Shown here in pieces: positions 11,806-20,278 of a DNA stretch of 64,000 bases. The position numbers and the translations under genes were made by a program. The DNA is from Amycolatopsis sacchari (GTDB taxonomy: Bacteria > Actinomycetota > Actinomycetes > Mycobacteriales > Pseudonocardiaceae), in NCBI RefSeq assembly GCF_900114035.1, contig NZ_FORP01000018.1, forward strand, positions 1 through 64,000, read 5' to 3'. Position 1 is the stretch's first letter. The number at the start of each line of letters is the position of its first letter. The notes below the pieces were generated by a model. The model worked only from the letters and a program-made list of their open reading frames with translations, was not told where the DNA came from and did not search any database.

Positions 11806-12858
11806 ATGCGCAAGCGCGCGCTTTTCGGTGCGGCGTGCCTGGGGGTCGCCGCTGTGCTCGGGCCGCTGGTCGCGGCCGGGCCGGCACTCGCGGCGGAAGT
11901 CCGGGTGCAGTCGGGTCCGGCGGACGAGCTGTGGGTGCGCTACCTCGCGCAGTACGACCCGCGGTCGACGGTGCGGATCGCGGCGTGGCAGGCGTTGTTG
12001 TCCAGCGCGCCGGACGCCGCGATCGACCGGTTCCTCGAGTCCGGATACGACTACGCCGTCCAACTCGCGGCCCAGCGAAAGGCGCGTAACGCGGACTTCG
12101 CCAAGCGCGTGCTGGCCGCGTTCACCGCCGAGTTCTCGCCCGAGGTGCACGCCGCCGCGCAGTTCGCGGTCAACAGCCGCGACGACGCCGACCGGGAACG
12201 GTTCGCCAACGGCGGTTTCGAGGCCGCGAAGCAGCGGGACAGCGCGGCCCGCGCCGCACGGGGCGAGCAGGCCGCCGCGCTCGCTGAGGCCGACCGCGCC
12301 TTCGTGCGCGGGCTCGCCGTGCAGGACCCGGGCGCGCAGGTACGGGGGAGCGCCGCCTACGCCGTGCGTCCCGGCGCGACGGACGCCGACCTCGTCGATT
12401 TCTTCGCCAACGGCTGGGCTTTCGGGGCCAGGCTCGACTTGGAGAGCTTCCGGCAGCAGGGCGCGGACAACGAAATTCGGTGGCGCGCCACGCTCACCGC
12501 GTTGCTCGCGGACGCGGCGGCAGCCGAGCAGGCCGCGCGCGAAGCCTCTGGTGAACTCGCCGAGCAGGCGAAGGCGGCAGCCGTTCGTGCGTGGCAGGCC
12601 GTCGGCGACCACACGGCTCCGGCGCGGTCGTACTGGGCCGAGGCGCAGCAACTGGCGCAGAGCCAGGCCGAAAACTGGGCCGCGGTGTACGCGGCCGCGA
12701 GTACGGCGACCGGGCCGAACTGGGTCGCCATCACCGGGCCCGCGCAGTCCGCGCAGTCCGATTGGGACGCCGAACGCACGCAGGCCGCGCAGCAGGCCCA
12801 GTACTGGGCCGCATTGCTGCAGCAGGCCCTCGACGGCGAGGCCCGAGTCCTCGCCTGA
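11806..12858 (+). CDS. Secreted ALF-repeat protein
   Basis: A 350-aa exported protein. Signal peptide: MRKRALFGAACLGVAAVLG to about residue 32 (ALAAE). Three to four ALF-type repeats follow, each with a helix, an x-x-x-F-x-x-x-G-x-x-x-A core and a spacer: IDRFLESGYDYAVQLA, RERFANGGFEAAKQR and LVDFFANGWAFGARLD. The C-terminal 120 residues are an Ala/Gln-rich helix (AEAQQLAQSQAENWA). ALF repeats are known as short repeats of unknown function in actinobacterial secreted proteins and at the N-termini of polymorphic toxins. The next gene is such a toxin with the same repeats, so this protein may assist its export or anchoring. No catalytic motif is seen. Confidence 0.85.
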   Translation: MRKRALFGAACLGVAAVLGPLVAAGPALAAEVRVQSGPADELWVRYLAQYDPRSTVRIAAWQALLSSAPDAAIDRFLESGYDYAVQLAAQRKARNADFAKRVLAAFTAEFSPEVHAAAQFAVNSRDDADRERFANGGFEAAKQRDSAARAARGEQAAALAEADRAFVRGLAVQDPGAQVRGSAAYAVRPGATDADLVDFFANGWAFGARLDLESFRQQGADNEIRWRATLTALLADAAAAEQAAREASGELAEQAKAAAVRAWQAVGDHTAPARSYWAEAQQLAQSQAENWAAVYAAASTATGPNWVAITGPAQSAQSDWDAERTQAAQQAQYWAALLQQALDGEARVLA

Positions 12859-12866
12859 GCACTTCC

Positions 12867-12889
12867 CGCGCCCGTGGTGGGCGCGTTTT
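12867..12889 (+). terminator. Rho-independent terminator after the first ALF gene
   Basis: CGCGCCC (12867-12873) and GGGCGCG (12879-12885) form a perfect 7-bp stem with a 5-nt loop, followed by TTTT. It lies 8 bp after the stop codon and separates this gene from the toxin gene, which starts 26 bp further on. Confidence 0.8.
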
Positions 12890-12914
12890 CGCCGTCCACA
12901 CTGGGGAGTTCGAG

Positions 12915-15900
12915 TTGACGCACGTCCGAAGATGCCTGTCGGCCCTGTTGGCCTTCGTCCTGCTGGCGGGGCTGATCCAGCCGCCGCCGGTGCTGGCCGC
13001 GACCCCGCTGCCCGCGACGGCGGCGGACGAGCCGACGTCGCCGCGGCCCATGCCGCCCGACCCGTACCAGGAGTGGGACGGTTCGGCGGGGGTGCCGGAC
13101 TGGGGTGATCCGCGGTTCCGGCAGCTCGTGGTGGACAACGCCGAGCTGGCGGAGGATCCCGAGGTCCGCGAGGCCGCCGCGGCCGCGCTGGCCGCCGGGA
13201 CCAACGCCGCGCTCATGGAGTTCCTCAACCAGGGACTGCGGGAGGCCAAGGCCAGGGCGACGGCGCGGAAGCAGGAGCAGGCGCGCCAGGACCGGGCGGC
13301 GATCGAGCCGCTGCGGGGCACGGGCGGACCGTACTTCAACGCCGAGGTCGAGCGCGTGCTGTCCGGTTCGGACTCCGACCGCATGCTGTTCCTGGCTTAC
13401 GGCAAGGAGATCGCGCAGCAGCGAGATGCCGACGCGACCCGTGGCGAGCAGGAACGGTTGGCGCAGCTGCGATCCCGGGTGCAGATGCTCGTCGGAGCGG
13501 GTGGTCCCGAGGTGAAGCGTGCGGCACAGGCCGCGTTGGACGGCGGCGACGCGGCGATCGCGGAGTTCCTCGCACGCGGTTACCTCCTGGCCGCGAAGGC
13601 GGACGCCGACGCGCGTGAGCAGTACCTGAAGGACCAGGAAGCCCGTGACGCCGCGGCCGAGCAGCTGTCCGACCTCGCCAAGCGCGCGGCCAGGGCGGCG
13701 CAGGCGCGCAAGGACCTGCTGGTGGCACACGGAAACGGCGTCCGCGCGCTGGAGCAGGCGGCGAACGCGCTGGTCTCGGCGAGCAACGAGGCACGCAGGG
13801 CGGCACAGATCCTGGCCGCCAACAAGGCGGGCGGGCAGCACCCGGCGGACGCGTTCACCGGCGTGAAGGAGGAGGTCGCGCGTCAGCTGGGGTACGCGAG
13901 GCAGGCGGCGACGGACGCGCAGCAGGCGTCGGCGGCGGCGCAGGTGCAGGCGAACGTCCTCGTCGAAACCGGGCTGACGTACGGCACGCAGTGGGCGGAC
14001 ATGGCGCGCGGCATGGCGAGCGCGGCGCAGGCGGCGGTCACCGCTTCGGAGACCGCGCAGCACGCGATCGACGCGACGGCGTTCACCGACCAGGCGCGCA
14101 ACGCGCAGGAAGAGGCCGAGCGGCACGCCGAGGAGGCGCACCAGTGGCGGCTGCACGCGGAGGAACACGCGCGTGCGGCGGCGCAGCTCGCGGACGCGGC
14201 GCGGGTGCAGGCGGATGCCGCCAAGGACGCGGCCGTGCGGACGAAGGCGGCGCGCCAGGCGGCGGAGGCCGCGGAAGCACAGGCGTGGGCGGCAGCAGAG
14301 CGCACGCGTACCGCGCGCCTGACGGCGGAGCGGGAGGCGGCGACGGCCGCGGCGGCACGGGCGACGGCCGAGCGTGAACGGTCCGCGGCTGCCGCGGCCC
14401 GGGCGCGGGCGGACCAGCAGGCGTCGGTCGCGCGATCGGCGCGGGCGGAGGCGGACCGGCAGGCCGGGATCGCGTCCGTGGCACGGCAGGGCGCGGACGA
14501 CGCCAACGGCCGCGCGGCGCAGGCGGAAACCAACGCGCGCAACGAAGAGCGGAACGCGGCGCAGGCCCGTAACCGGGCGTACGCGGCGGAGCGTGAACAG
14601 CGCGCGGCCGACGCGCGGTCGGCGGCGATGGACGCGATGGCCGCGGCGAGCCGCGGTGGGACGTATGAGAAACCGGCGCAGGACGCGGCGAACGAGGCAC
14701 GCGGGTATGCGACTGCCGCCCGTGCGGCTGCCGGTGCGGCACGCGGTGCGGCGAACACGGCGACGGGAGCCGCGGCGGGTGCGCGTGCGGCGGCGACGGA
14801 AGCGGGGGCGCACGCCGCACGGGCTCGGGCCGCCGCCCAGCAGGCCGCGGCCGCGGCGGCCCGCGCGAACGCCGCCGCGAACCAGGCCGAAGCCGAAGCA
14901 CGCGCCGCGCACGCCGCACGGTTGCGTGCGGACTCGGCGGCGTCGGACGCGACTTTCGAAGAGGCGCGTGCGGCGGAAGCGGCACGCAACGCGGTGTCGC
15001 TGGCGGAACAGGCGGCTTCGGAGGCGGTGCAGGCGGTTCGCTCCGCCGAGCGGACGCGTGCGGAGGCTGACGCGGCCGCAGCGGAGTCGGTGTCGGCGGC
15101 GACGCAGGCGGGGCTCGCGGTACAGGCGTCGGTGGCGGCGCGGGCTTCGTCCCAGGCGATCACGGACCCCGCGAACACCGCGATCACGGTCGTGGCGCCC
15201 TTCAGCGGCAGCGATCTCGGTGCGGATTTCGTGCTGCTGGTGGCGAACCAGGCGAAGGCCGTCGGTGCGGAGCAGGCGGCTGCCGCGGCGCGTGCCGCCG
15301 ACGAGGCGACGGAAGCTGCCCGGCTCGCGCAGGAAGCCGCGGACCGCGCGGCGGGTGAGGTCAAACCGGCGTACGACGCGGCCGCGGCGGCGTCGCGTTC
15401 GTCGGCGGCAGCGGCACGCTCGGCGGCGGAGGCACAGCAGGCGGCGGCCGACGCGGCGGTCGACGGAGCGGCGGCCCGCGCCGCGGCTTCCCGTGCGGCG
15501 CAAGCGGATGCGCAGGCCCACGACGACGCGGTGAAGGCCCGCGCGGCGGCGAACGCGGCGAGCAACGACGCGGCGATCGCGGGCCGGGCGGCGTCAGCGG
15601 CGGAACGCGACGCGGCGGCGGCTCGTGCGGCGGCGTCGGCAGCGGAGTCGGACGCGGCCGCGGCGCGCGACGCGGCAGGCCGGGCGGAAGCGGACGCCAC
15701 AGCGGCGGAAACGGCCGCGACGGAAGCCCAAACCCACGCCGACGCGACGGCGGAAGCGGCGCGGAACGCCATGCAGGCGGCCATCGACGCCGGACACGCC
15801 GCGGACCGGGCGGAACAGGCGGAGCGGGACCGGCAGGCGGCGGAGCGGGCGGCGCAGGCCGCGCAGGCGGGGGACGACGTCCCGGACATGACGGCGGAGG

Positions 15901-17033
15901 AGGAACAACTCCTCTACCAGATGGGCGGACCCGACCTCGTCGAGCAGAACCGCGAAGCGCTGGAGCAGGCCAAGAAGGGGATCATCGACTACCTCATCGA
16001 GAACGGTGGCCAGGTGCTCCTGGACATCATCGGTGTCACCGACGCGAAGAAGTGCTTCAGTGAAGGCGATGTCGCGGCTTGCCTGTGGACCGTCGTCAAC
16101 GTCGGCTCGCTCCTCCTGTTGCTCGCGAAGCTGCCTGCGGTGGCGTCCGCCATCACGAAGGTCGTGGCGGGGCTGACGAAATTCCTGGAAGCCAGCGCGG
16201 CCGGCCGGGAGATCCTCGAACTCGGCCGCAGGATCATGGGCGAGGCGAAGGTCGTCTGCGGGGTCGGCAACAGCTTCACCGGCGACACCCCGGTGCTGCT
16301 GGCCGATGGCACGCACCGAGCCATAGCCGAGGTCGAGGCGGGCGACGAGGTCCTCGCCACCGATCCCGAGACCGGCCGCACCGAGCGGCACCAGGTGCTC
16401 CAGCAGATCGTGGGGGAGGGGCAGAAGACCCTCGTCGACGTCACCGTGGACCTGGACGGACCGGACGGTGACCGCGAGGGCACGGTCACCGCCACCGACG
16501 GCCACCCGTTCTGGGTGGACGACCAGGGCCGCTGGCTGCCCGCGATCATGCTGGCCCCCGGCGACCACCTGCGTGCGTCCGACGGGCACCCGGTCGAGGT
16601 GCTGGGCACTCAGGTGCACGGTGAGCCCCGGCGGGTCTACAACCTGTCGGTCGAGGGTATTCACACCTACTACGTGACCGCGGGAACGGCCGACGTTCTC
16701 GTCCACAACACCGCGCCCTGTCCCCGGTTCTCGGTCGACTCCAACGGCGAGATCGTCGATTTCATGTCGCCGTCCGGAAAGCTCAGCCTGCCTGCGAACC
16801 TCGAAGGCGGGACCGCGCAGGAAATCGGTGCGAAGATCTGGGGGCACGGCACGAAGATGGCGCAGGAACTCGTCGGAACGCGTACGCCGGAACAGCTGCG
16901 TGCGCTGTGCTCCAAACGGGACGCCGAAAGGCTGATGGATTTCTACGAGAACGCGCACATCAACATTCCTTCGAATCCGACTGCTCCGATCCGCGTACAG
17001 TTGGCCAAGGAGATCATCGACGCGTGGAGCTAG
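12915..17033 (+). CDS. Polymorphic toxin: ALF repeats, Ala-rich stalk, Hint domain, C-terminal toxin
   Basis: A 1372-aa secreted toxin. TTG 12915 is taken as start, with GGGGAG 6 nt upstream and the signal peptide RRCLSALLAFVLLAGLIQ directly after it. ALF repeats occupy about residues 70-250 (ALMEFLNQGLREAKARA, AIAEFLARGYLLAAKA). An extremely Ala-rich helical stalk follows to about residue 1000, broken near 745-780 by TAITVVAPFSGSDLGADFV. A hydrophobic pre-toxin helix region comes next (LLLLLAKLPAVASAITK). The Hint domain runs from NSFTGDTPVLLADGT (N1119) through TATDGHPFWV to GIHTYYV and VLVHN (N1265). The C-terminal 107 residues form the presumed toxin (KIWGHGTKMAQELVG, TRTPEQLRAL, TAPIRVQLAKEIIDAWS), which I cannot assign. 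A serine replaces cysteine at the Hint nucleophile position. Autocleavage after N1265 would release the tip. Confidence 0.9.
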   Translation: MTHVRRCLSALLAFVLLAGLIQPPPVLAATPLPATAADEPTSPRPMPPDPYQEWDGSAGVPDWGDPRFRQLVVDNAELAEDPEVREAAAAALAAGTNAALMEFLNQGLREAKARATARKQEQARQDRAAIEPLRGTGGPYFNAEVERVLSGSDSDRMLFLAYGKEIAQQRDADATRGEQERLAQLRSRVQMLVGAGGPEVKRAAQAALDGGDAAIAEFLARGYLLAAKADADAREQYLKDQEARDAAAEQLSDLAKRAARAAQARKDLLVAHGNGVRALEQAANALVSASNEARRAAQILAANKAGGQHPADAFTGVKEEVARQLGYARQAATDAQQASAAAQVQANVLVETGLTYGTQWADMARGMASAAQAAVTASETAQHAIDATAFTDQARNAQEEAERHAEEAHQWRLHAEEHARAAAQLADAARVQADAAKDAAVRTKAARQAAEAAEAQAWAAAERTRTARLTAEREAATAAAARATAERERSAAAAARARADQQASVARSARAEADRQAGIASVARQGADDANGRAAQAETNARNEERNAAQARNRAYAAEREQRAADARSAAMDAMAAASRGGTYEKPAQDAANEARGYATAARAAAGAARGAANTATGAAAGARAAATEAGAHAARARAAAQQAAAAAARANAAANQAEAEARAAHAARLRADSAASDATFEEARAAEAARNAVSLAEQAASEAVQAVRSAERTRAEADAAAAESVSAATQAGLAVQASVAARASSQAITDPANTAITVVAPFSGSDLGADFVLLVANQAKAVGAEQAAAAARAADEATEAARLAQEAADRAAGEVKPAYDAAAAASRSSAAAARSAAEAQQAAADAAVDGAAARAAASRAAQADAQAHDDAVKARAAANAASNDAAIAGRAASAAERDAAAARAAASAAESDAAAARDAAGRAEADATAAETAATEAQTHADATAEAARNAMQAAIDAGHAADRAEQAERDRQAAERAAQAAQAGDDVPDMTAEEEQLLYQMGGPDLVEQNREALEQAKKGIIDYLIENGGQVLLDIIGVTDAKKCFSEGDVAACLWTVVNVGSLLLLLAKLPAVASAITKVVAGLTKFLEASAAGREILELGRRIMGEAKVVCGVGNSFTGDTPVLLADGTHRAIAEVEAGDEVLATDPETGRTERHQVLQQIVGEGQKTLVDVTVDLDGPDGDREGTVTATDGHPFWVDDQGRWLPAIMLAPGDHLRASDGHPVEVLGTQVHGEPRRVYNLSVEGIHTYYVTAGTADVLVHNTAPCPRFSVDSNGEIVDFMSPSGKLSLPANLEGGTAQEIGAKIWGHGTKMAQELVGTRTPEQLRALCSKRDAERLMDFYENAHINIPSNPTAPIRVQLAKEIIDAWS

Positions 17034-17046
17034 GAGAAATTCCGAG

Positions 17047-17295
17047 ATGGTGCAAGACGGGATCAGGGTTCGTTTCCGGGTGGCGGGTGACGCCGGCGGG
17101 CAGGTGTGCTTCGAGCCCACGGGAATGTGCTACGACCTGGCCGACGGTGAACACGTATCAGCGCTGCTCGACGAAGCGCAGGTGCGGGCGCTCGAAGTCA
17201 CGTACTGGGCCGGGGGGATTTCGGTGTGGGTGCGCGGGAACTTCACGACCTTCGACCAGAACGGGAACGAGCTGCACCAGTTGTGGGGCGGCTGA
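17047..17295 (+). CDS. Probable cognate immunity protein
   Basis: An 82-aa protein (MVQDGIRVRFRVAGDAGG, LLDEAQVRALEVTYW, GNFTTFDQNGNELHQLW), beta-rich in appearance and without signal peptide. It starts 13 bp after the toxin stop with AGGAGA 9 nt upstream, the standard position for the immunity gene of a polymorphic toxin. It should bind and block the C-terminal domain of the toxin in the cytoplasm. No known immunity family is recognised, which matches the novelty of the toxin tip. Function is inferred from position only. Confidence 0.75.
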   Translation: MVQDGIRVRFRVAGDAGGQVCFEPTGMCYDLADGEHVSALLDEAQVRALEVTYWAGGISVWVRGNFTTFDQNGNELHQLWGG

Positions 17296-17416: not shown

Positions 17417-18220
17417 ATGAGACTGGAGTATTCCGCGCTGGGTGCGCCGGATCTGCGGGGCCGGACAGAGGCGGAGGTGTTCGTGCACGTCGAGGCCGAT
17501 CTTGTCGTCTCGGACGGGGGTGAGGAGATCTGCACCGAGGGCGCGTTTCCGGTGGTCGAACTCGCCGCTGCCTTGCGGGAGTGGCAGGCGCAGGACGAGC
17601 GGCGGGACTTCGAATTCCCGTCGCTGTCGCTCGACGGCCGGTGGGAGGTGCGGATCGTCCGGGTGAGCGGCGGTTGGCAGGTGGTCGCCGAGGCGGTGCG
17701 AGGTGCGGTGCGTCCGCTGGCCGAGATCGACGCGGCGGTCGACGAATTCGTCGAAACCCTGCGGGCGGACTGCACACGGCAGTTCGGGTCCTGGATCGAC
17801 CAGTACTTCCCGCCCGGCGCGACCCCGATGCGGGTCAGCGGGATCGTCGAGCCCAGGGATCCCGTGGTGAGCGGAGACCCCACGACACCGTTTTCGGTCG
17901 CGTGGCCACGCGTCGGAGCCGCGGGGATGGGACTGGATGTATATCGGGAAAACCAGGTACACGATCGGGTGCACGCGGGAAGGGAAGCCAATCTCTCGTT
18001 GACCCGGGTCCTCGCCGAAGCGCAGCCGGCAGACTTGCTTCACGGCGTCGACTACCACGGCGACACGATGTTCAACGTCGGGCAACTGAGGAAGATCGAC
18101 CAGGAGTTCGATGCGATTCTCGCGCGGCGTCCGGAACTTGCGTCCGACGTTGCCGCGCTGCGGACGCTTTTCGAACTGGTGGTGCGAGATCGGGGATACC
18201 TGTGGATCGCCGGTGATTGA
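17417..18220 (+). CDS. Two-module immunity-like protein
   Basis: A 267-aa protein from ATG 17417 that looks like two small proteins joined. Residues 1 to about 140 (VFVHVEADLVVSDGGEEI, FPSLSLDGRWEVRIV, FGSWIDQYFPPG) form one module. From about residue 170 the second module reads MGLDVYRENQVHDRVHAG, LLHGVDYHGDTMFNVGQL, RRPELASDVAALRTLF and RDRGYLWIAGD. It matches a free-standing actinobacterial family that I recall beside toxins, with HGVD..GDTMFN and RGYLW..GD conserved. The internal Met at the junction would start the stand-alone form. Together with the gene before it this is probably an immunity island behind the toxin. The role of the first module is unknown. Confidence 0.73.
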   Translation: MRLEYSALGAPDLRGRTEAEVFVHVEADLVVSDGGEEICTEGAFPVVELAAALREWQAQDERRDFEFPSLSLDGRWEVRIVRVSGGWQVVAEAVRGAVRPLAEIDAAVDEFVETLRADCTRQFGSWIDQYFPPGATPMRVSGIVEPRDPVVSGDPTTPFSVAWPRVGAAGMGLDVYRENQVHDRVHAGREANLSLTRVLAEAQPADLLHGVDYHGDTMFNVGQLRKIDQEFDAILARRPELASDVAALRTLFELVVRDRGYLWIAGD

Positions 18221-18253: not shown

Positions 18254-20278
18254 ATGAGAAGAAGACCTGGGGTGCTCCTCGTCACCGCGACGTGTGTCGC
18301 CCTGATGGGTGGCCTCGCCGCCGTGCCGGCGCAAGCAGCGCCGGTCAGCACGGACACAGCCGTCTCCGCGCAGGCCACCGCACCTGAGTCCACTTTGGAG
18401 GACAAGGTGCGGGCCGCCGCGGCGCTCGGCATCCTCGCCGGGGACGACCTCCTCGTCCTCAGCGACCGCAACTTCGTCATCGCGCTGTGGCGGCAGGCCA
18501 CGGGTGCCGAAGTGCGCGCCTCGGCGGAACTCGCGTTCGCCGGGAGCGACTTCGAGTGCACGCAGTGGATCAAGACCGGCATCCACGAGGCCAAAAAACG
18601 GGACGACATCAACGAAATCCGGGACGCCGAGATCGCCAGGCAGGCGCGTGAGCTGAAGCAGCACGCCGCCGCCACCATCGGCATCGTCGCCGAGCCCGAG
18701 CTGCTCGTGCAGAGCTACCGCGACTTCATCTACGCGCTCTGGCAGCGCGCCACCGGCCCCAAGGTCAAGGCCGCCGCCCTCACCGCGTTCGGGCAGGACG
18801 AGGCCGCGCAGAAGGAGTTCCTCCTCAACGGCATCGTCACCGCCAACGCGCAGGACCAGCAGGACCGCATCGACGCCGACCAGCAGGCCACCGAGGCGGA
18901 GAAGGCCCGCCTCGCCGCCCGCAACGCCAAGGCCAACGCCGCCGCCGTGCTCGGCATCGTCGCAACCGAGAACCTCCTCGTGCTCTCCGACGACAACTTC
19001 GTGCGCGAGATCTGGAACCGCGCCACGCCCGGCACCGAGGTGGCCGTCGCCGCCGAGCGCGCCATCCGCAGTAGCAACCCGGCCGACTGGAAGGCGTTCA
19101 TCGACACCGGCATCTACGACGCCAACCGCCGAGACATCGCCATCGCGCTCGAAAAGAAGGCCGCCGCCGACCGCAAACGCCTGCAGGAGCTGCGCACGAA
19201 GGCCGCCAACAGCAAGGTCCACCCCACGCTCGTCGCCGCCGCGGACATCGCGCTGGCCGGTGACGTCGACGCCGTCGACCGCTTCCTGCGCATCGGCCAG
19301 TACGAGGACGCCGTGCTCCGCCAGTCGCTGCAGGCCGACACGCTCGGGTCGCGTGGTGGCTACGTCCGCAGCAACCCGGAACAGCAGAGCTACATCGACT
19401 TCGGCAGGCCCGACCCGCAGCCCGGTGACGGCGTCAACGCCACCTGGAAGGTCGTGCCGGGCCTGGCCGATCCCGACTGCCACTCCTTCGAGTCCGTGCT
19501 CACGCCTGGCTCCTACCTGCGGCAGCTGGACCTGAAGGTGTACACGGCGGCCAGTGACGGCAGCGACCGGTTCCGCACCGACGCGACGTGGTGCAGCCGG
19601 ACGGGCCTCGACGCGAACGGTGTCAAGCTCGAATCGAAGGGCGCGCCCGGCCGCTACCTGCGTCACTACAACGGTCTGCTCTGGGCCGCCGACAGCAGTG
19701 GCGCCCACAACTTCGACTCCCCGAACCAGTTCGAGGTCGACGCCTTCTGGCGGATCCACGGCGAGAACCCGGCCACGTCGGCCATCCAGCGCCGGTGGCT
19801 GAACGACGACGCGATCCGCGCGAGGGTGGGCAACCCGGTCGCCGAGGAGAAGATCGACGGCGCCCTGCGGTACCGCGACTACCCGAACGCCCGCCTGACC
19901 TGGTCCGCGCCCACCGGGGTGAAGGAGATGGAGGGCAACATCCTCGCGAAGTACGTGGCGATGGACTCCATGCACAGCCCGGTTTACGGGGCTCCCACCA
20001 CCGACGAGACCGGCACCCCGGACGGTGTCGGCCGCTACAACCACTTCGCCGGTGGCGGTTCGATCTACTGGACGGCGCAGACCGGCGCACACCTCATCTA
20101 CGGGGGGATCAAGAGCCGCTGGGCGGCGCTGGACTGGGAACGGTCCTACCTCGGCTACCCGACCTCGGACGAGATGCCGGCGCCGACCGGCCGGTGCAGC
20201 CAGTTCCAGCACGGTTCCATCACCTGGAACTCCACGACCGGCGCGGTGACCGACTCCCGCAACGCCTGCGCGAAGTAG
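18254..20278 (+). CDS. Secreted ALF-repeat protein with AbfB and LGFP repeats
   Basis: A 674-aa exported protein starting 9 nt after GAGGAG. The signal peptide ends near AVPAQAA. Three strongly similar ALF-type units follow (about residues 55-290), each carrying G-I-x-A-x-x-x-L-L-V, a central ALW or EIW, and a C-terminal TGI or NGI motif; a degenerate fourth reads AVDRFLRIGQYEDAVL. Residues about 370-500 form an AbfB-type beta-trefoil (SYIDFGRPD, CHSFESVLTPGSYLRQ, GRYLRHYNGLLWAA). The C-terminus carries LGFP repeats (YLGYPTSDEMPAPTGRC, GGSIYWTAQTGAHLIYG). AbfB binds arabinan-type sugars and LGFP repeats associate with the cell envelope, so the protein probably sits on the mycolic-acid or arabinogalactan wall. 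It may be the surface partner of the ALF toxin locus. Confidence 0.85.
   Translation: MRRRPGVLLVTATCVALMGGLAAVPAQAAPVSTDTAVSAQATAPESTLEDKVRAAAALGILAGDDLLVLSDRNFVIALWRQATGAEVRASAELAFAGSDFECTQWIKTGIHEAKKRDDINEIRDAEIARQARELKQHAAATIGIVAEPELLVQSYRDFIYALWQRATGPKVKAAALTAFGQDEAAQKEFLLNGIVTANAQDQQDRIDADQQATEAEKARLAARNAKANAAAVLGIVATENLLVLSDDNFVREIWNRATPGTEVAVAAERAIRSSNPADWKAFIDTGIYDANRRDIAIALEKKAAADRKRLQELRTKAANSKVHPTLVAAADIALAGDVDAVDRFLRIGQYEDAVLRQSLQADTLGSRGGYVRSNPEQQSYIDFGRPDPQPGDGVNATWKVVPGLADPDCHSFESVLTPGSYLRQLDLKVYTAASDGSDRFRTDATWCSRTGLDANGVKLESKGAPGRYLRHYNGLLWAADSSGAHNFDSPNQFEVDAFWRIHGENPATSAIQRRWLNDDAIRARVGNPVAEEKIDGALRYRDYPNARLTWSAPTGVKEMEGNILAKYVAMDSMHSPVYGAPTTDETGTPDGVGRYNHFAGGGSIYWTAQTGAHLIYGGIKSRWAALDWERSYLGYPTSDEMPAPTGRCSQFQHGSITWNSTTGAVTDSRNACAK

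Follow-up and report, generated by a model that had tools for sequence, protein, structure and literature searches.

What kind of toxin is encoded near the start of this Amycolatopsis sacchari contig, and what is the small protein encoded directly behind it? The window, that is, the whole stretch of 64,000 nucleotides that was analysed, contains a long gene whose product begins with ALF repeats. ALF-repeat toxins are known as the UmbC proteins of the Streptomyces umbrella particles; as described there, a canonical UmbC carries two sets of ALF repeats, eight in all, and UmbB binds the repeats and holds UmbA, a trypsin-like lectin (PMC11062931, PMC13274773). From comparative sequence analysis, it is very probable that the locus encodes an umbrella-type (UmbC-like) polymorphic toxin, secreted and antibacterial, together with its cognate immunity protein. 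The features on which the argument depends are as follows.

11806-12858, plus strand: small ALF-like protein of 350 aa, directly upstream of the toxin (tblastn relatives, PF03752 scan)
12915-17033, plus strand: predicted UmbC-like polymorphic toxin of 1372 aa with a TTG start (ORF, Pfam scan, PF03752 scan)
12915-12998, plus strand: signal-like N-terminus of the toxin, residues 1-28 (by eye from the sequence)
13158-13583, plus strand: three ALF repeats forming one set (PF03752 genome scan, home-built ALF profile)
13620-15884, plus strand: Ala-rich stalk, residues 236-990 (composition)
15891-16250, plus strand: pre-Hint module of about 120 residues, common to carriers with different tips (present in 57 of the 297 family genomes sampled)
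16269-16709, plus strand: PT-HINT domain, residues 1119-1265, with NSF, TATDGHPF and VHN motifs (PF07591, motif positions)
16710-17033, plus strand: putative toxin tip, residues 1266-1372, 107 aa, a remote DUF4951 relative (profile searches)
17047-17295, plus strand: partner of 82 aa, a predicted immunity protein for which an all-beta fold is predicted (pairing, model, profiles)
17417-18220, plus strand: 267-aa gene product with a DUF7878 domain followed by a C-terminal domain (Pfam, sequence comparison)
18254-20278, plus strand: lectin-like protein of 674 aa with ALF, AbfB and LGFP domains and a signal-like N-terminus (Pfam)

The reading frame and the domain scans confirmed the layout given in the earlier note: a 1372-aa protein with a signal-like N-terminus, ALF repeats, an Ala-rich stalk of roughly 750 residues (755 aa, 41% Ala, 0.8% Pro), a Hint domain and a 107-aa tip. 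The frame looks coding, with a G+C content of 0.57/0.86 at codon positions 2/3 (measured on the longer frame 12591-17033), and GGGGAG stands 6 nt 5' of the TTG start. Of the Tat signal peptide that belongs to the features of UmbC, the twin arginine is present in the N-terminus; by eye, the rest of the motif is not clear. In the PF03752 genome scan, the three repeats scored 35.4 bits (13158-13247), 18.9 bits (13317-13415) and 49.2 bits (13470-13583) against a cut-off of 25.4, so that two of the three exceed it. The whole-protein Pfam scan at E<=1 listed no ALF repeat, and the home-built ALF profile took in repeats of this toxin and of a second ALF locus in the same genome (on contig C42). PT-HINT matched residues 1130-1265 with 76.7 bits against a cut-off of 27.7. 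As VHN closes the Hint domain at residues 1263-1265, cutting there, given the presumed roles of the Hint motif residues, would release residues 1266-1372, which is exactly the tip delimited previously. The protein had also been said to possess every module needed. The modules themselves are present, but canonical UmbC has two ALF sets and this carrier one, and that description left out the two adjoining ALF proteins.

The three motifs quoted for the tip are all in the sequence; the accompanying view that it matches no family has to be given up. The profile search proposed at that time found no Pfam toxin family and did find a relative: residues 44-106 of the 107 match DUF4951 (PF16309) with E 5.5e-5 and 23.7 bits, below the curated cut-off of 27.3. 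Four of seven tips match DUF4951 at E<=1, the best with E 8e-7, and the tip relative of genome G505 reached 28.8 bits in the genome search and 25.0 by hmmscan of the protein. Searched with a profile of the seven tips, the PDB returned 2mmb (E 2.2e-4). The tip is thus a known domain of unknown function rather than an unmatched sequence, and its relationship to DUF4951 appears to be a remote one. The shared positions are DFY, NPTA, R and I..D.W, in the C-terminal two thirds of the tip. There are also differences: the tip scores below the family cut-off, and the solved relative has neither a carrier nor a member of the partner family nearby. Over the matched stretch, 2mmb has the same sequence as part of an Acinetobacter baumannii protein of 125 aa whose N-terminus is signal-like. 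This protein (L010:5851-6228) is stand-alone, is apparently exported, judging by eye from its signal peptide, and is encoded near gigB; the partner family was not found in the 12-kb stretch around it. For this reason, not every DUF4951 protein need be toxic. The literature searched held nothing on this domain (PF16309, 2MMB) and no reported activity. The structure model of the tip was poor (pLDDT 63, pTM 0.44) and gave no informative structural match. The tips share no conserved His and, to our knowledge, the few polar residues that are conserved point to no known active site.

The 82-aa gene does follow the toxin by 13 bp (17033 to 17047), as had been noted, and its G+C content of 0.44/0.85 at codon positions 2/3 is coding-like. 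The claim that its product matches no known family holds as well, since the best Pfam match of any of seven members had E 0.041; a PDB search with the partner gave nothing better than E 0.066. The partner was modelled as an all-beta protein (pLDDT 78.5), for which no structural match was informative. By eye, no signal peptide or transmembrane stretch was seen in the partners. Their pI of 4.1-4.6 overlaps that of seven other immunity candidates (4.2-5.3), so acidity is not diagnostic.

The relationship between the tip and the partner is best seen across loci. A member of the partner family lies directly downstream, on the same strand, of confident tips in 10 of 10 loci. These comprise the window, four further loci from the window's taxonomic family (Streptoalloteichus, L002; G505, L003; G456, L018; G477, L060), three Streptomyces plasmids (L005, L006, L007), a Nocardia plasmid (L008) and a genome of another family (L049), where the partner frame is broken. 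Loci with more similar tips tend to have more similar partners (correlation of pairwise identities, r 0.72, Mantel p 2e-4, nine pairs with L049 omitted), a result that shared descent alone could also yield. The tip is found on carriers of several kinds: ALF with Hint in the window, ALF without Hint (L012), RHS with Hint (L013, L014) and RHS with PA14 (L015). Three tip relatives (L018, L019, L021) stand without Hint, and release by Hint is therefore not general for this tip. The plasmid-borne RHS-type toxins of Streptomyces and Nocardia (L013, L014, L015) resemble the window in having relatives of the same tip and partner and differ in their carrier, which is RHS-based with PT-HINT or PA14. Two further arrangements were observed. 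In Streptoalloteichus (L002:5395-6321), the tip lies on a 308-aa ORF with no ALF or Hint match at E 0.01, with the partner and the lectin-like protein kept, and in G477 (L060:1691-2551), it ends a 286-aa ORF of another kind, with no pre-Hint module in the fetched stretch.

The reverse exchange, of tips on one carrier, was followed through the pre-Hint module. Thirty carrier tails, mostly the best match per genome out of a longer list, were examined, and PT-HINT was found in 13 of the 30. At E 1e-3, four tails matched an XOO_2897-like deaminase, four DUF4951, three Endonuclea_NS_2, two Tox-REase-7, two EndoU and one Colicin_D; the remaining tails matched no toxin family at this threshold. The tip and partner profiles match the same 4 of the 30 carriers and neither matches any of the other 26, with the limitation that the profiles were built partly from these four carriers or identical copies, except L018. 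An exchangeable C-terminal tip on a conserved carrier and a tip-specific candidate immunity gene directly downstream are two of the features that define polymorphic toxin systems, and both are found here by sequence comparison.

It might be asked whether the tip is a toxin at all. A harmless binding or structural domain would agree with the lack of a DUF4951 activity in the literature and of a catalytic signature in the tips. However, other carriers of this kind have deaminase, endonuclease, REase, EndoU or colicin D domains in the slot that the tip fills, and close relatives differ from one another in the C-terminal part, as is seen when the window is compared with genome G600 of the same genus, so this explanation is given only a very slight chance. 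The toxin of G600 is 83-100% identical to that of the window in 60-residue blocks over residues 61-960, 45-80% identical over 961-1260 and only 19-25% identical from 1261 to the end, where it carries a different tip. Identity to the window is 85% for its lectin-like protein and 88% for its small ALF protein. Because the divergence starts at about residue 961, ahead of the Hint domain and the tip, the exchange covers the whole C-terminal part and not the tip alone.

Partner genes are also kept where there is no tip. The partner was found in 10 of 294 family genomes. A confident tip adjoins it in the window, G394, G456, G477 and G505, and a tip fragment in G516; in G419, G537, G522 and G570, no tip was found in the fetched locus, nor did a search with the tip alignment find one in the genome (0/4), the positive control being the window's own genome (E 8e-50). 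The match in G522 contains a stop codon. G419 and G537, which belong to the window's genus, have the partner at 78-81% identity, and the carrier (pre-Hint) module was not found in either of them. Simple NG86 counts over 74 codons gave a dN/dS of about 0.16 for each of the two against the window and 0.07 between them, values that indicate purifying selection on both genes. The G537 partner is flanked by relatives of two immunity candidates that belong to other tips of such carriers (51% identity over 103 residues and 60% identity over 43), of which G419 showed only the second. Polymorphic toxin loci with several immunity genes have been described (PMC3482391). The window shows the same habit as the G537 neighbourhood by keeping a second candidate at 17417-18220, a probable extra immunity gene; the C-terminal domain of its product shares 73% identity with the protein encoded behind the G600 tip, itself different from that of the window. 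A partner relative with no tip upstream also occurs on a Tsukamurella plasmid (L011:5971-6228).

These orphan genes bear on the role of the partner. If the 82-aa protein were a secretion chaperone or another accessory factor of the tip, the strict adjacency of the two genes would be explained equally well. Such a factor would hardly be expected to persist without the tip in four genomes and the Tsukamurella plasmid, or to adjoin relatives of two other immunity candidates in G537, and we consider this role highly improbable. The reading as a toxin-immunity pair, which was put forward in the earlier note, is upheld by the tip exchange, the strict pairing and the partner genes kept without a tip; all of this is comparative genomics, and as such, it is strong evidence.

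The second question is whether the carrier belongs to an ordinary umbrella particle. The two ALF proteins encoded around it have to be considered here. The small upstream protein has a signal-like N-terminus, degenerate ALF-like repeats and an Ala/Gln-rich C-terminus (partly by eye); its two ALF matches, of 14.7 and 14.4 bits, are both below the cut-off, and no Pfam family matches it at E<=0.01. The window was compared with 26 loci, chosen from the list of genomes with the pre-Hint module plus the ALF locus on C42, and two incomplete loci (L062 and L084) were excluded from the counts. Five loci are canonical, with 7-8 ALF repeats in two sets, UmbB in 5/5 and UmbA in 4/5. Twenty loci, the window included, are of the window type and have a single ALF set of three repeats (16 loci) or two (4 loci). 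An ALF+AbfB+LGFP relative is encoded in 20/20 of them and a small ALF protein in 18/20 (tblastn), and Pfam confirmed ALF, AbfB and LGFP in all six lectin-like relatives scanned besides that of the window. The UmbB profile matches none of the 20 window-type loci and the UmbA profile gives one weak match among them (L086, E 2.7e-4); neither matches within the 64-kb window. The profiles were built from three (UmbB) and four (UmbA) of the canonical loci, so that the canonical matches are partly obtained by construction; for UmbB, L074 and L077 are independent. In one genome, G527 (L070:3748-13266), the toxin N-terminus of the window type and the lectin-like protein each occur twice, in tandem.

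The window's own genome has both types of loci. The canonical one (G000:C42 ~59700-66060; L082:5697-12063) encodes an eight-ALF UmbC, UmbB and an UmbA in which a trypsin-like domain is combined with six LGFP stretches. The window carrier might therefore be an UmbC of the ordinary sort that works with the UmbB and UmbA of C42, with no separate type of particle. In addition to the canonical set in the same genome, such sharing is suggested by the third ALF repeat of the window, which by eye resembles the C42 repeats, and by the orphan UmbA proteins that serve several particles in S. coelicolor, according to Zhao et al. (PMC11062931). The distribution across genomes points the other way. The UmbB profile matches all five canonical loci and no window-type locus, every one of the latter has an ALF lectin-like protein of its own, and with a four-row UmbB alignment at E 1e-3, 9 of the 20 searched genomes with a window-type locus gave a match and 11 did not. 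One of these 11, G394, has only the incomplete locus L084, so the figure becomes 10 of 19 among genomes with a counted window-type locus, and a divergent UmbB could escape the four-row profile. The window type, then, needs no UmbB that is visible to that profile, and dependence on the C42 proteins is regarded as unlikely.

How far the carrier resembles UmbC can be stated feature by feature. According to the description of Streptomyces UmbC by Zhao et al. (2024, PMC11062931), the common points are the ALF repeats, the long stalk, the Hint domain in some proteins, the variable C-terminal toxin, the immunity gene directly downstream and the lectin-bearing partner proteins. The differences are that UmbC has two sets of four ALF repeats, whereas one set with three repeats was found in the window carrier, and that the lectin-like domains of the window lie on a separate ALF-repeat protein, with a small ALF-like protein upstream. 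Measured against the features used to recognise UmbC, N-terminal ALF repeats are present (three, two of them above the cut-off), the three repeats of the single set stand against eight in C42 and against two sets of four in the definition, no UmbB gene was found within ten genes and no UmbA (trypsin-like plus lectin) at the locus. By its sequence, the carrier is UmbC-like but not canonical. The 2024 survey required UmbB within ten genes of UmbC (PMC11062931), and in the 2025 survey of Streptomyces, UmbC proteins with fewer than eight repeats were discarded (PMC13274773), as their search rules are described; from these rules alone, the window type would be missing from their lists. In the literature searched, no two of LGFP, ALF repeat and AbfB were mentioned together. 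The comparison adds a class of carrier that lacks UmbA and UmbB at its locus, as far as the profiles show. The systems of PT-HINT polymorphic toxins described by Zhang et al. (2012, PMC3482391) are similar in their secreted carrier, Hint domain, exchangeable tip, and adjacent and unlinked immunity genes; the window differs from them in that its tip matches no Pfam toxin family and its partner no Pfam family. The first 8000 positions of the window have a G+C content of about 56-66%, compared with mostly 67-79% downstream to 20 kb.

Taken as a secreted umbrella-like toxin with its immunity protein, the locus would work in the following way. The N-terminal ALF repeats and the stalk would bring the toxin to the cell exterior along with the two co-encoded ALF proteins, of which the one bearing AbfB and LGFP presumably picks the target and binds the competitor. 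Cleavage by the Hint domain behind Asn1265 would release the 107-aa tip, which would enter the competitor and act in its cytosol. The 82-aa protein would stay in the cytosol of the producer, bind the tip and so protect the producer. The cytosol is favoured as the site of action because the partners have, by eye, no signal peptide or membrane stretch. A toxin that acts instead on the envelope, membrane or wall, might be suspected, given that the solved DUF4951 relative looks exported. Immunity would then be on the wrong side, and some immunity proteins of a surface-acting toxin are described as secreted or membrane proteins (PMC3482391); an envelope target is therefore rather improbable. Within the reading as a toxin, the activity judged likeliest is an enzymatic attack on nucleic acid or translation, because nucleases and deaminases are among the tips of such carriers; this guess is held tentatively, at somewhat less than an even chance.

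A broader possibility, which is speculative and on balance doubtful, is that there is a second umbrella-like architecture that is independent of UmbA and UmbB. The small ALF subunit, the ALF-AbfB-LGFP lectin and the toxin would all be secreted and would stack into a composite ring, with the lectin built in and no adaptor, and the DUF4951-like tips would form a new antibacterial toxin family with a new immunity family. A single particle made of the three ALF proteins, should it exist, would show how umbrella particles can be built without an adaptor. The locus provides a testable function for DUF4951, a domain with a relative of solved structure, and supplies a candidate inhibitor at the same time; it also points to a class of umbrella-like systems that published search criteria would leave out.
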